Below, piece by piece: positions 34,444 through 61,424 of a DNA stretch of 64,000 nucleotides. A program made the translations under genes and the position numbers. The stretch is from Chitinophagaceae bacterium (GTDB lineage Bacteria; Bacteroidota; Bacteroidia; Chitinophagales; Chitinophagaceae), in the NCBI GenBank assembly GCA_024508725.1, contig JANINS010000003.1, positions 248,001-312,000 on the forward strand, read 5' to 3'. The stretch's first letter is position 1, and each line of letters begins with the position of its first letter. The notes under the pieces are model-generated. The model ran no database searches. It had not been told where the DNA came from and worked only from the letters and a program-made list of their open reading frames with translations.

Positions 34444-34544
34444 ATACTAAATGTAAACTGTTCTCCTGTTTGTTGCTGAATTAACTGCTATAACGAGCTC
34501 GCATTTGTTAAAAAATTCTAAAACAAGGTTCACCTGTAACTTTC

Positions 34545-34583
34545 TACGAATTCAATCGTATATTTGATACGAAATAATTCGTA
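34545..34583 (+). promoter_or_regulatory. Twin TACGA-N6-TCGTA operators with -7 box, upstream of the coiled-coil gene
   Basis: Two perfect 16-bp palindromes lie at 34545-34560 and 34568-34583, 23 bp centre to centre. Between and overlapping them is TATATTTG (34559-34566), an exact -7 box. The proximal palindrome ends 31 nt before the ATG at 34615. The same layout occurs at 58640-58678. The layout predicts repression by a dimeric repressor; a BlaI/MecI-type factor is my guess. Confidence 0.75.
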
Positions 34584-34614: not shown

Positions 34615-35376
34615 ATGAAAAATGTACTCACCTACCGCAAGCCGATTTTTATTGTCGTTCTTTTTGCCGTTCTTATTGGCACTGCATCCTGGCAAGCTAG
34701 ATCTAAAAGTAAACTTGCACCCAGGCAAAACATTACAGACACCGTTAAGCCCGGCAACAACTCCGCTGATCAAGATGAATTTAGATTAGAGGAACTTGAT
34801 AAAGCCATGAAAGAACTGAACGAACAAATGAAAAAACTAAATGAAGAGTTCAGCAATGGAAAATTAGATAAGGCCATTAAAGAGGCTATGGAGAAAGTTG
34901 ACTGGAAAAAAATGCAGGCAGAGCTGAAAGCCTCTATGGAAAAAATTGACTGGAAGAAAATGCAGTTAGAGATGGTGAAAGCAATGAAAGATGCAGAGTT
35001 GGCGATGAAGAATATTGATATGAGTAAACTGGAAAAAGAAATGGAGCAACTGCAGGAGCGGATGAAGAATCATGAAGTGGAGATGAAGATCAATAGTGAG
35101 AAGATTAAACAGAAAGTAGAAGAGAGTATGAAGAAAGCAAAGGTTGAAATGGAGAAAGCAAAAGAAGAAATGAAGTTGATGAAAGCATTTACAGACGAAC
35201 TGGAAAAAGATGGTTTGATCAACAAGAAGAAAGGCTACAAGGTTGAGGTGAAGAATAACGAACTATATATTAATGGCACAAAGCAAAGCAAAGAAACATC
35301 TGAGAAATATCGCAAGTATTACAGGAAAGACAATTTCACGATCAATACAAATGGAGATACCATCATCGAGATATAG
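34615..35376 (+). CDS. Membrane-anchored or secreted coiled-coil protein with internal repeats
   Basis: 253 residues: an N-terminal hydrophobic segment (KPIFIVVLFAVLIGTASW), then about 150 residues of highly charged coiled coil. The coil holds two 16-residue repeats containing DWKKMQ, near residues 100 and 116, and long Glu/Lys/Met heptads (LEKEMEQLQERMKNHEVEMK). The C-terminus (VEVKNNELYINGTKQSKETS) is a segment I associate with the end of Bacteroidota M56/BlaR1-like peptidases. No protease motif is present. Its expression is probably controlled by the twin operators upstream. Confidence 0.72.
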   Translation: MKNVLTYRKPIFIVVLFAVLIGTASWQARSKSKLAPRQNITDTVKPGNNSADQDEFRLEELDKAMKELNEQMKKLNEEFSNGKLDKAIKEAMEKVDWKKMQAELKASMEKIDWKKMQLEMVKAMKDAELAMKNIDMSKLEKEMEQLQERMKNHEVEMKINSEKIKQKVEESMKKAKVEMEKAKEEMKLMKAFTDELEKDGLINKKKGYKVEVKNNELYINGTKQSKETSEKYRKYYRKDNFTINTNGDTIIEI

Positions 35377-35432: not shown

Positions 35433-36446
35433 TCAAAAACTTGGAACATTACATTTGACGGCTTTGCCTTCTGAGAACACTCCTGTTTTTACTAGTGAGA
35501 CTTCCATTGCACCTCTGGTAGCATTGTAACTACTTAAACCACTCATTGTTGCATCGTAGTTGAAAGTAAGTTTATAGCTGTTCAACTGAAAGCCAATGGT
35601 CGGTGCAACAGCATCTCCGACTCTATAGTACAATCCGCCTAACAATTGTGTAGTACCATCACCGCTCAAATTATAATTAGCCATACCTCCAGCCACATAT
35701 TCCATCGCATTTCCCATTTTGCTGATGTATGCATTTGGACTTAATATCCAGCGATCGTTTAACTTGAAAACACCATTAAGAAACATAGTAAATCTGGGAG
35801 CTACTATTGCAGCACTTGCATCGGTATTACTAAAAAATCGCTCTCTTGGACGGTTTACATGCAAGGCACTAAGACCTAAGTTAATATAGCTGTTATCAGA
35901 AGGAAACGTGGCGAAGTTCATTCCTACCTGGAGATCGAAATAGCTTTGCCTGTTATTCATAAAACTTAATTCTCCGGCAGGCACCACAGCATCGAAAAAC
36001 TTTCCATTCCATTGACTCAGAAAAGTAAGTTTTGAAAAGTCAATACTTTTTTGAACAAAACCAGCATTAAAGCCAAGGCTTACCAGGCTATTCCATCCTA
36101 CCATCTGGTGATAAGCTACAGAGGCATATCCTTTTGTTGCAGCCAGGCTTCCTGTTCCGGCTACATCCTTCATCAAAGCACCACCAACACCTACCCACGC
36201 ATTTTCAAATCGGTTATTAAACAATTGCACATCGCCCCATACACTCATTGTTTTGTAAGGATTGTTTTGAAGTGCAGCCCATTGATTTCTATAGTTACCA
36301 CCCACCCGGTAATCTGCTTCGGGATTGAAGCCTGTATTAGCAGGATTTACCAGCAATGGTGCATTAAAGTATTGTGTAAAGTGCAGATCCTGGGCAATAC
36401 TGCCAAGAGAGCACATCATTAAAACAGCCAATAAAATTCGTCTCAT
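35433..36446 (-). CDS. PorP/SprF-family type IX secretion system membrane protein
   Basis: An outer-membrane protein of the type IX secretion/gliding machinery that anchors or partners CTD-bearing cargo. The 337 residues have a signal peptide (MRRILLAVLMMCSLGSIAQ) and the family opening DLHFTQYFNAPLLVNPANTG. The rest is a beta-barrel pattern ending GAMEVSLVKTGVFSEGKAVK. It lies 18 nt downstream of the large PKD/CHU_C protein gene, the usual arrangement of a SprF-like partner with its substrate. Confidence 0.92.
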   Translation of the reverse strand: MRRILLAVLMMCSLGSIAQDLHFTQYFNAPLLVNPANTGFNPEADYRVGGNYRNQWAALQNNPYKTMSVWGDVQLFNNRFENAWVGVGGALMKDVAGTGSLAATKGYASVAYHQMVGWNSLVSLGFNAGFVQKSIDFSKLTFLSQWNGKFFDAVVPAGELSFMNNRQSYFDLQVGMNFATFPSDNSYINLGLSALHVNRPRERFFSNTDASAAIVAPRFTMFLNGVFKLNDRWILSPNAYISKMGNAMEYVAGGMANYNLSGDGTTQLLGGLYYRVGDAVAPTIGFQLNSYKLTFNYDATMSGLSSYNATRGAMEVSLVKTGVFSEGKAVKCNVPSF

Positions 36447-58131: not shown

Positions 58132-58608
58132 TTAAGCCTTAATACCTGTTTGTAGAATCTCTTCAGCGGTTTTACGGGTTTTATCGTCATCATTCTTTAA
58201 AGTAGGATCCATCTGGCTCATGTTTTCCTGTACACGATCCATTTCCTTATTCATCTTCTGAACATCCATTGTCTGCTTCTTAGTAACCTTAGGTTCGTCT
58301 GTTGTTACTACCACAACGTTATTTCCTGTTCTGATCACTTTTACCGGCACTGTTGCAATTGCTTCAGCAACTTCAGCTTTGATCTCGGCAATATTGATGG
58401 CAGCTAACTCAGCTTTTAACTCACTGATGGCAGCCTGGATCTCTTTCATTGCCTGCTCTGTTTCTTTGTTTGATTTTTGTTTTTTGCAGCATGTCTTCTT
58501 GCATTTGCTGCTGTCGTCTGCATTAACTGTTGCAGCAGAAGCCCCTGCAAACACTAATATTAGTATGGCAAGGGTGAGTGCTTTAGTTAAGGTGGTTACG
58601 CTTTTCAT
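58132..58608 (-). CDS. Secreted coiled-coil protein under twin operators
   Basis: 158 residues: a signal peptide (TLTKALTLAILILVFAGASA), a Cys-rich segment just after it (SSKCKKTCCKKQKSNKE, four cysteines) that could bind metal, a coiled coil (EQAMKEIQAAISELKAELAA), then VPVKVIRTGNNVVVVTTDEP and a charged C-terminus. I do not recognise a family. Its promoter is a near-exact match in layout to that of the coiled-coil gene at 34615 (operators at 58640-58678). Confidence 0.72.
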   Translation of the reverse strand: MKSVTTLTKALTLAILILVFAGASAATVNADDSSKCKKTCCKKQKSNKETEQAMKEIQAAISELKAELAAINIAEIKAEVAEAIATVPVKVIRTGNNVVVVTTDEPKVTKKQTMDVQKMNKEMDRVQENMSQMDPTLKNDDDKTRKTAEEILQTGIKA

Positions 58609-58639: not shown

Positions 58640-58678
58640 TACGAATCATTTCGTAACAAATCTACGGTTCAATTCGTA
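58640..58678 (-). promoter_or_regulatory. Twin TACGA-N6-TCGTA operators with -7 box (second locus)
   Basis: Proximal palindrome 58640-58655 is perfect; distal 58663-58678 has one mismatch (TACGG). Centre distance is 23 bp. TAGATTTG (58664-58657, minus strand) is an exact -7 box lying between them. The proximal site ends 31 nt before the ATG at 58608. Every distance equals that at 34545-34583. Confidence 0.75.
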
Positions 58679-59012: not shown

Positions 59013-60431
59013 ATGGAAGTTGCTGCTCAAGGAAATATCTCTGCTACACACCTGCAACAGTTCAAGAATATTGTTGGAGAACCTTATGTCTTATATGATG
59101 AAGAGTCATTGAAACATTATGGTCATGATGAAACAGAGCTGTTGTTGTTCTTGCCGGAAGTTGTATTAAAGCCATCAACTACTGAAGAGATATCAGCTAT
59201 CATGAAAATTTGTAACGAAGACAGAATTCCGGTTACACCTCGTGGTGCCGGAACAGGCTTGAGTGGTGGTGCTTTACCTCATTTAGGTGGTGTGCTGCTA
59301 AGCACCGAACGTTTAAATAAGATCATCAGTATAGACGAAAGAAACCTGCAGGTCACCACTGAACCAGGAGTGATCACTGAAGTATTGCAGAATGCGGTAA
59401 AAGAAAAAGGATTGTTCTATCCTCCTGATCCAAGCAGTCGTGGCTCCTGTTTTATTGGTGGAAACATTGCTGAGAATAGTGGTGGACCCAAAGCAGTGAA
59501 ATATGGTGTTGTAAAAGATTATGTTTTGAACCTGGAAGTGGTATTACCCAATGGCGAAGTGATCTGGACAGGTGCGAATGTATTGAAGAACTCAACAGGT
59601 TATAATCTTACCCAACTTGTAGTAGGCAGCGAAGGCACATTGGGAATTGTAACCAAAATTGTTTTGAAGCTGATACCACTACCGAGTTATGATTTGTTGA
59701 TGCTTGTTCCATTTGCTTCATTGGACAAAGCCAGTGAGGCTGTGAGTGCCATTTTCAGAGCCGGATTTACGCCTAGTGGGCTGGAGTTAGTAGAGATTGA
59801 TGCATTAAAGATTGTTGCTGCTATGGTGGATAGTCATGCAGTACCGGTAAGTGATGATATTGCAGCTCACCTGTTAATAGAAGTGGATGGTAACAACCTG
59901 GATGTATTGATGAGTGAGATGGAAGCGATCAGTGATCTATTAATGCAGTTCGAAGCAGGAGAAATTTTCTTTGCTGATAATGCACAGCAAAAAGCTGAGT
60001 TATGGAAGTTGAGACGTCGTGTTGCTGAAGCAGTGAAGATGGATGGCTATACGATCGAAGAAGATACGGTTGTTCCAAGAGCAGAATTGCCAACATTGAT
60101 CCGTGGTGTAAAACAATTGGGAAAGCAATACAATTTTGAAGCAGTTTGTTATGGCCATGCAGGTGATGGTAACTTACACATCAGGATAAAAAAACAAGGA
60201 ACAGCCAACAGCCAGGAAGATCCTGAAATGGTGAAAGGGCTCAGGGCTTTGTTTGAACTGGTGTATGATCTTGGCGGAACCATAAGTGGTGAACATGGAA
60301 TAGGCCTGATACAAAAAGGGTTCATGGATATCGTATTCAAAGAAGCCAATCTCAGGTTGATGAGAGAGATCAAAAAAGCTTTTGATCCGAACAATATTTT
60401 AAATGCAGGTAAGATCTTTGATCTTAATTAA
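59013..60431 (+). CDS. FAD-linked oxidase (GlcD/D-lactate dehydrogenase family)
   Basis: A 472-residue flavoprotein that oxidises 2-hydroxy acids (glycolate or D-lactate type). The FAD-binding (PCMH) domain has VTPRGAGTGLSGGALPHLGG, ERNLQVTTEPGVITEVLQ, YPPDPSSRGSCFIGGNIAEN and GSEGTLGIVTKIVLKLIPL. The C-terminal cap has CYGHAGDGNLHIRIKK and SGEHGIGLIQKGF, with FDPNNILNAGKIF at the end. No iron-sulfur partner (GlcF-like) is adjacent, so the substrate is uncertain. Confidence 0.92.
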   Translation: MEVAAQGNISATHLQQFKNIVGEPYVLYDEESLKHYGHDETELLLFLPEVVLKPSTTEEISAIMKICNEDRIPVTPRGAGTGLSGGALPHLGGVLLSTERLNKIISIDERNLQVTTEPGVITEVLQNAVKEKGLFYPPDPSSRGSCFIGGNIAENSGGPKAVKYGVVKDYVLNLEVVLPNGEVIWTGANVLKNSTGYNLTQLVVGSEGTLGIVTKIVLKLIPLPSYDLLMLVPFASLDKASEAVSAIFRAGFTPSGLELVEIDALKIVAAMVDSHAVPVSDDIAAHLLIEVDGNNLDVLMSEMEAISDLLMQFEAGEIFFADNAQQKAELWKLRRRVAEAVKMDGYTIEEDTVVPRAELPTLIRGVKQLGKQYNFEAVCYGHAGDGNLHIRIKKQGTANSQEDPEMVKGLRALFELVYDLGGTISGEHGIGLIQKGFMDIVFKEANLRLMREIKKAFDPNNILNAGKIFDLN

Positions 60432-61049: not shown

Positions 61050-61424
61050 CTAATATTCCTCTGACACCCATTTCTTAAAAAGCGGAGCGGTTTTCTGGCT
61101 GATGATGATCTGGTGATCGGCATGCGGTATTCTTAAGAACACTTCGAGTTTTACCTTTTCGAATACTTTAAAGCCTCTTACAAAATTTATATTTATAAGA
61201 TACTGCCTGTTGGCACGAAAGAACATGGTTTCATCAAGCTCTGATTCCAACATACTCAAATTCCTGTCGCAGATAAATTTTTTACCAGAAGCATCTACAA
61301 CAAATATTACCGTATCAAACCGATAGAAATATGCAATATCCTGAACGGCGAGAGAAACGTACTCATCTCCTTTCTTTACAAGTAACCTGGCTTTTCGTTT
61401 AGTTATAGTGGATGAATATATCAT
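61050..61424 (-). CDS. Stand-alone LytTR DNA-binding protein
   Basis: 124 residues made almost wholly of one LytTR domain: RLLVKKGDEYVSLAVQDIAY, DTVIFVVDASGKKFICDRNL, MLESELDETMFFRANRQYLI, NINFVRGFKVFEKVKLEVFL and ISQKTAPLFKKWV. There is no receiver domain, so it is not phosphorylation-controlled by itself. Its target is unknown. It sits convergent with the barrel gene. Confidence 0.9.
   Translation of the reverse strand: MIYSSTITKRKARLLVKKGDEYVSLAVQDIAYFYRFDTVIFVVDASGKKFICDRNLSMLESELDETMFFRANRQYLININFVRGFKVFEKVKLEVFLRIPHADHQIIISQKTAPLFKKWVSEEY

Follow-up and report, generated by a model that had tools for sequence, protein, structure and literature searches.

Two genes in the window (the whole 64-kb stretch of DNA analyzed here) are each preceded by twin 16-bp palindromes of the form TACGA-N6-TCGTA. 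The best reading of these sites is a self-regulating BlaI-M56 circuit that lacks a beta-lactam sensor domain and in which the tail of the M56 protease is now a separate, co-regulated membrane protein. It is highly probable, in our judgment, that the twin palindromes are BlaI dimer sites, that blaI-M56 controls itself and that the protein encoded at 34615 is a detached M56 tail. What is established here is that the operators exist and are conserved, that they are linked to BlaI and M56, that the tail is homologous to M56 C-termini and that fused and separate tails are split between genomes; binding, proteolysis, the signal and feedback are inferred.

Twin palindromes and promoter elements at the two loci

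At the first locus the distal operator (34545..34560, forward strand) matches TACGA-N6-TCGTA in all 10 fixed positions. The proximal operator (34568..34583, forward strand) is also perfect and lies 23 bp from the distal one, and a further 31 nt lead from it to the ATG of the gene at 34615. Two perfect 16-bp palindromes, 23 bp apart and with the ATG 31 nt beyond, are thus confirmed at 34545-34583, as the first-pass annotation had described them. At the second locus, which reads on the reverse strand, the proximal operator (58640..58655) is perfect and the distal operator (58663..58678) has one mismatch, one arm being TACGG rather than TACGA as read on the forward strand. The 23-bp spacing and the 31-nt distance to the ATG, here at 58608, are both the same as at the first locus. 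The spacing at the two loci had been described as the same in every respect; this holds for the palindromes and the ATG distance, and the loci differ in the mismatched arm and in the -7 box, which reads TAGATTTG at the second locus (58657..58664, reverse strand, read from the sequence).

The -7 box consensus is TAnnTTTG. At the first locus the box is TATATTTG (34559..34566, forward strand), and it overlaps the distal operator by 2 bp. It is present as claimed, but because its first two bases are shared with the distal palindrome it does not lie strictly between the sites. The proximal operator probably covers the transcription start, the position of which is inferred from the -7 box. TAnnTT is found at the -7 box position in 56 of 67 related promoters. 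Among the exact pairs listed from the genome_contigs collection (see below), those before BlaI, 34615-type and outer-membrane protein (OMP) genes make up 85 pairs; TAnnTT is at the end of the distal palindrome on the strand of the gene in 73 of these, on the opposite strand in 3 and on neither in 9. Further upstream, 10 nt before the distal operator, TGTAAC (34535..34540, forward strand) is a probable -33 element. Of the 67 related promoters, 31 have TGYAAC in this very position, with exactly 10 nt between it and the first perfect palindrome, and 37 of 3350 shuffled controls have it within 25 nt; we regard it as a probable variant of the -33 element. These positions bear on whether the sites act in RNA, as leader hairpins or terminators, and not as operators. 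Inverted repeats near start codons would fit such a role, but in the 56 promoters just mentioned the distal site shares bases with the -7 box and so would not be transcribed, and the spacing between the sites is kept at 22-25 bp. We consider an RNA function very improbable.

The window contains five matches with at most one mismatch, against 0.63 expected, and none of 100 shuffles reaches five. A scan of the 3.88-Mb genome (8 contigs) for 23-bp pairs, proposed in the first-pass annotation as a check, finds the pair with at most 3 mismatches in 20 positions at 34545-34583 and 58640-58678 alone, and finds the reversed pattern as a pair nowhere. The claim that the shared geometry is unlikely by chance is borne out by these counts. 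The genome has 6 single perfect sites, compared with 9 for the reversed pattern. Singles therefore show no excess over chance, and it is the pairs, their position and their conservation that carry the argument. Single sites scattered through the genome had been named as an observation that would refute the idea. This is partly what we see, as the singles are no commoner than the reversed pattern and the site at C3:1338588 looks like chance; the Zn_peptidase_2 gene at that site was rejected as a regulon member, with the site present in this genome only and in 0 of 29 relatives. Lack of conservation in related species, also named, did not occur, since a perfect site precedes 66 of the 69 related genes. 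That the palindromes arose by chance is suggested by nothing but the single-site count, and is virtually ruled out by the restriction of pairs to two loci with an empty reversed control and by the 66 of 69 related genes, compared with 1 of 2070 shuffles.

BlaI-M56 genes and the distribution of the operator

The first-pass annotation had suggested a BlaI/MecI-type regulator with an M56 sensor. Two BlaI/MecI genes were found in the genome search. The candidate repressor gene (C4:692327-692701, reverse strand) has the palindrome at its own ATG: the perfect palindrome C4:692702-692717, one of the six singles, ends at the base directly before the start codon, and 24 bp upstream of it lies a second, degenerate site (2 mismatches). 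The protein has a Penicillinase_R domain (PF03965, E 2.1e-27, over the cut-off) and matches the Staphylococcus aureus BlaI structure with E 6.6e-11; the nearest solved structures are those of BlaI (1sd4/1xsd) and MecI. Directly after it is the gene of a 736-aa M56 protease (PF05569, E 3.7e-30), with the HExxH motif present as HELAH. A penicillin-binding sensor domain was not found in this protease (Pfam, E 0.01), and the generic NCBIfam BlaR1 model covers its residues 115-327 only, with 77.7 bits against a cut-off of 400. The protease also has no tail domain, the tail profile described below matching just the 34615 gene in this genome. The operator of this blaI gene does not have the TACA/TGTA core of studied BlaI/MecI members and has TACGA-N6-TCGTA instead. 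The residues that align with the cleavage site of S. aureus BlaI, at the position where we take that site to be, are not conserved. No beta-lactamase gene is present among the genes examined near the two window loci and blaI-M56. The second BlaI gene (contig C2) has ACTAAA-type repeats upstream instead, plus an M56 neighbor; the M56 protein that follows it (L013:3795-5741) ends in a part that we presume to be amidase-like. With the operator at the blaI-M56 start codon, the suggested regulator is strongly supported. As neither binding nor expression has been shown, its assignment remains a strong inference.

BlaI genes were collected from 79 family genomes by protein similarity. Each of the 30 closest orthologs, one per genome, is preceded by a perfect site no more than 200 nt from its start. 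A second site is found 22-25 bp away in 13 of them and is absent in the other 17, so the 23-bp twin stands as a design for both window loci but is not fixed among orthologous blaI genes. Sets of 20 middle-class and 20 distant BlaI genes were hand-picked from the similarity listing. A perfect site is present in 4 of the 20 middle-class genes, and many of the others have an altered form ending in TTTCCTA; in this class (L320-L339) the related, altered operator is often TACGAAAAATTTCCTA, placed directly before the start region. None of the 20 distant genes has a perfect site. The contrast between 30/30 close orthologs and 0/20 distant BlaI genes lends support to the earlier idea of a dedicated repressor with a small regulon. 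The motif YT[TGS]xLKx[ML]Q, which was chosen after the sequences had been inspected, is present in 51 of 52 pair-linked BlaI proteins, 30 of 30 close, 20 of 20 middle-class and 0 of 20 distant ones. From the fold we take this stretch to be the recognition helix of BlaI, and the motif is a candidate helix signature. As far as sequence comparison can tell, the operator type follows the helix motif.

The pair at exactly 23 bp with at most 2 mismatches is found in 61 of 244 family genomes, and the reversed pattern in 4. The 65 sites fetched outside the own genome lie before BlaI (26), before 34615-type genes (35) and before an OMP gene (1), with 3 unmatched. One of the unmatched sites, from the genus of the window (L200:560-1704), has a gene for a 95-aa secreted-looking protein between the pair and an overlapping 34615-type gene. 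An exact-pair scan across bacteria, in the genome_contigs collection, gave at least 119 stretches, some of them identical to contigs of the family scan. The 124 exact pairs listed are located before BlaI (52), 34615-type (17), OMP (16) and ArsR-type genes (12, in Streptomyces) or near a beta-lactamase-fold gene (2), and 25 are unassigned, some of which are several sites within one stretch. Among the matches listed, and judged by record titles, pair-linked BlaI is found in Verrucomicrobia, Gammaproteobacteria, Planctomycetes, Acidobacteria and Armatimonadota, some of these placements being our assumption. In the Streptomyces loci (L086, L096, L099, L128, L129, L131 and six more) several of the ArsR-type genes have a neighbor that we take to be transporter-like. 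We rejected these loci as part of the same system and treat them as convergent, since the pairs lie before ArsR-type genes; the motif alone therefore does not identify BlaI.

The Streptomyces pairs (12 of the 124 listed) also leave room for a different repressor, for example of ArsR or PadR type, that binds the palindromes and has BlaI as just another target, which would equally account for the sites before blaI. Such a repressor is improbable, as the site accompanies blaI in all 30 close orthologs and in loci assigned to several other phyla, and the operator type tracks the BlaI helix motif, although no systematic search was made for other regulators beside the sites.

Outer-membrane protein genes form a further, probable class of targets. 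In Hymenobacter (L095, L107, L109, L114, L115 and eleven more loci) the pair lies before genes of OMP_b-brl_3 type, an identity checked by Pfam for one of the sixteen. In the genome of the window, an OMP_b-brl_3 gene follows 11 nt after the single site C3:1580523. Among the 30 best homologs of this gene, itself included, a perfect site is found for 5 and a site with at most one mismatch for 11; in 3000 simple shuffles these numbers are 2 and 28. The closest homolog (L365, 62% identical) has no site. We conclude that this outer-membrane protein is probably in the regulon.

The 34615 protein and the M56 tail domain

The gene at 34615..35376 (forward strand) encodes a coiled-coil protein of 253 aa with a membrane anchor. 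Its C-terminal domain, the tail, is of M56 type and is located by sequence comparison at 35170..35361. Proteins of this family begin with a hydrophobic helix, continue as a long, charged and helical stretch and end in a conserved domain of some 65 residues. A near-invariant Asp-Thr pair is found at residues 42-43, shortly past the membrane helix. The structure model has a helix at residues 9-27 followed by long helices and is weak overall (mean pLDDT 59.8), with block means of 76-89 for residues 181-240 in the tail. No Pfam family is over its cut-off in this protein and no NCBIfam family matches at E 0.01, the M56 catalytic domain PF05569 is not found at E 0.1, and no paralog is found in the genome at E 0.01. 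A likeness to signal peptidase I was set aside as not convincing (best fold-search E 0.4), and weak Pfam and PDB sequence likenesses to signal peptidase were too weak to use. The first-pass annotation had remarked that the C-terminus of the protein recalls M56 proteins. This is supported by hhalign: a set of 24 separate tails aligns with the C-terminus of 6 whole M56 proteins, which had been selected for the resemblance of their ends, with a probability of 97.6% and E 2.8e-12 over 60 columns. The tail domain also terminates M56 proteins of Chitinophaga, Flavobacteriaceae and others.

A profile of the tail domain has matches in 162 of 244 family genomes. From these, 69 separate-tail genes were fetched by protein (L204, a 96-aa frame, is excluded), and these are the 66 of 69 genes with a perfect palindrome upstream, the shuffles being of dinucleotide type. 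The exact 23-bp pair with at most 2 mismatches is present in 18 of the 69, and a perfect single site in 48 of the remaining 51. When each site is allowed at most one mismatch, the spacing is 22 bp in 34 cases, 23 bp in 18, 24 bp in 5 and 25 bp in one. In 17 further separate-tail genomes, outside the 69, the locus was already known from the pair scan, and all have the pair with at most 2 mismatches. Because most of the proteins behind the profile had themselves been picked up through the motif, the test on the 69 genes is not wholly independent.

Among the matches listed, which cover 131 of the 162 genomes with a match, a separate tail (a frame of 240-360 aa) is found in 86 genomes and a tail on M56 in 23, and no genome has both. 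By frame size the M56 class had 25 members, of which G010 and G122, when fetched, proved to be pyrophosphatase frames. Fisher's exact test gives p = 3.7e-5 for this exclusivity with kinship ignored. Kinship explains the exclusivity as one event, so the p-value does not stand for many independent losses. A tree built from 128 columns of BlaI has 60 rows, of which 24 are labelled separate, 32 fused and 4 not at all, some of the labels having been assigned by genome. In it the separate class forms one group inside the fused class with an SH-aLRT support of 96. This tree omits six orthologs without a clear label (L301-L304, L315 and L319) as well as genome_contigs BlaI with tail-less or cut M56, except for the four unlabelled outgroups; G038 and G072, with tail frames of 96 and 106 aa, are labelled as separate. 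The tree fits a single split of the tail from M56, as a reading of sequence relationships only. BlaI is present in 22 of the 23 stretches with the tail on M56, the exception being L283, which has no BlaI in the fetched sequence. A perfect site is upstream of all 22 of these BlaI genes, and 21 of the 22 have a pair at 23-25 bp.

Frames of membrane-pyrophosphatase size also bear the tail at their C-terminus, in 29 genomes among the matches listed (by size). The 20 tail frames that were checked (17 of that size and 3 shorter) are all pyrophosphatases. In L053:1-999, for instance, a membrane pyrophosphatase has the M56-type tail as a C-terminal extension. In 13 genomes (by size, among the matches listed) a frame of this size is present alongside a separate tail, and in G207 a 579-aa tail frame is a pyrophosphatase in a genome that also has a separate tail.

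These distributions bear on whether the 34615 protein has a part in signalling. It could belong to the same BlaI-M56 regulon as a plain envelope effector, structural or stress-related, in the inner membrane or periplasm. Targets of repressors are usually effectors, and the same tail terminates the membrane pyrophosphatase in every frame checked, a protein for which we know of no signalling role. Against such an effector, separate and M56-borne tails exclude each other among the genomes listed while pyrophosphatase-size tails do co-occur with separate ones, and the tree fits a single split from M56. We consider the plain effector possible though somewhat doubtful.

The gene behind the second pair (58132..58608, reverse strand) encodes a 158-aa secreted or anchored charged protein, compared here by weak similarity and synteny. 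The similarity to the 34615 protein of the window is weak (E 6e-5, in the coiled coil), and E is 2.1e-7 with the 34615-type protein of a genus relative; the protein may perhaps be a tail-less paralog of the 34615 type. A PorP/SprF-family gene (35433..36446, reverse strand) and a gene that we take to be a glcD-like oxidase (59013..60431, forward strand) both adjoin the 34615-type gene in relatives; regulon membership has not been shown for either. Four genomes of relatives (nine loci, several of them copies of one contig) have both genes beside the 34615-type gene. Counting contigs with a 34615-type gene, our own included, 13 have the PorP/SprF neighbor and 10 the glcD-like one. In the window the PorP neighbor is at the first locus and the glcD-like neighbor at the second, 24 kb apart. 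The synteny together with the weak similarity suggests, by inference, that the two loci derive from a duplicated or split ancestral locus, with the tail lost from the copy on the glcD side. Close to the second locus, 61050-61424 encodes a protein of 124 aa, most of which is a LytTR DNA-binding domain.

Proposed circuit and related systems

In the circuit that we propose, two BlaI dimers would occupy the twin sites, with the repressor encoded elsewhere in the genome (C4). The dimer on the distal site would overlap the -7 box and the proximal one would cover the start region, and RNA polymerase would be excluded; this binding is inferred by analogy. BlaI would repress itself together with the downstream M56 protease. 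A periplasmic signal would then activate M56, BlaI would be cut or inactivated, and the regulon would be released. As the protease has no penicillin-binding domain (Pfam), the signal is probably a different one, perhaps of the envelope. The regulon would consist of blaI-M56, the proteins encoded at 34615 and 58608 and probably the outer-membrane OMP_b-brl_3 protein. The 34615 protein would be the detached M56 tail with a membrane anchor of its own. It most likely encounters M56 in the periplasm because the domain would once have been part of M56, and it would work there as a sensor partner or a feedback brake, so that its rise on induction could strengthen or shut off the signal. We propose only tentatively, as a plausible history that we do not yet favor outright, that the tail was cut once in this family from a BlaR1-like protease, gained its own anchor and came under the repressor of the protease, giving a two-part sensor with built-in feedback. 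Since the same domain terminates the membrane pyrophosphatase, the tail may serve in the periplasm as a module through which several membrane proteins are linked to a single envelope signal.

In S. aureus, beta-lactams modify the BlaR1 sensor domain and the M56 part then degrades BlaI (PMC7593790). The S. aureus BlaI-BlaR1 and MecI-MecR1 systems share with ours a PF03965 repressor, an adjacent M56 protease and an operator at the gene of the repressor. They differ in the penicillin-binding sensor and in the TACA/TGTA operator, which is the operator core of studied BlaI/MecI family members (PMC7253601); here neither is found, and the operator is TACGA-N6-TCGTA. The proposed regulon also includes a detached M56 tail, with no beta-lactamase gene seen at the examined loci. 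In Clostridium thermocellum two inverted repeats, with room for four protomers, seem to be required at BlaI targets (PMC8457756). BlaI_0696 and BlaI_1845 of this species resemble our system in having two inverted repeats per promoter, four-protomer sites and small regulons that include the operon of the repressor, and differ in their repeats, GTCTAT and GACTAT, and in their target genes (PMC8457756). The copper repressors CopY/CopR belong to the same family and have a 16-base palindromic operator, with a distal and a proximal copy in Streptococcus pneumoniae, but the operator is RNYKACANNYGTMRNY and metal is sensed by C-terminal CXC motifs (PMC7253601). A protease gene is linked to the repressor here, unlike in CopY/CopR.

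What is new is a form of BlaI-M56 control that has its own operator, occurs both inside and outside Bacteroidota and counts a detached protease tail among its regulon members. We found no description of the TACGA-N6-TCGTA operator or of the separate tail in a limited search of the open-access full-text literature; the passages of PMC12578637, a match for BlaI and M56, deal with other subjects. BlaI-M56 pairs are familiar from antibiotic resistance, and to our knowledge no role has been established for them in bacteria without the penicillin sensor. One such pair now has an operator, a small regulon, a candidate helix signature and a partner protein. If the proposed circuit is true, a sensor protease divided between two genes that its own repressor controls would represent an unusual evolutionary step for a signalling system.
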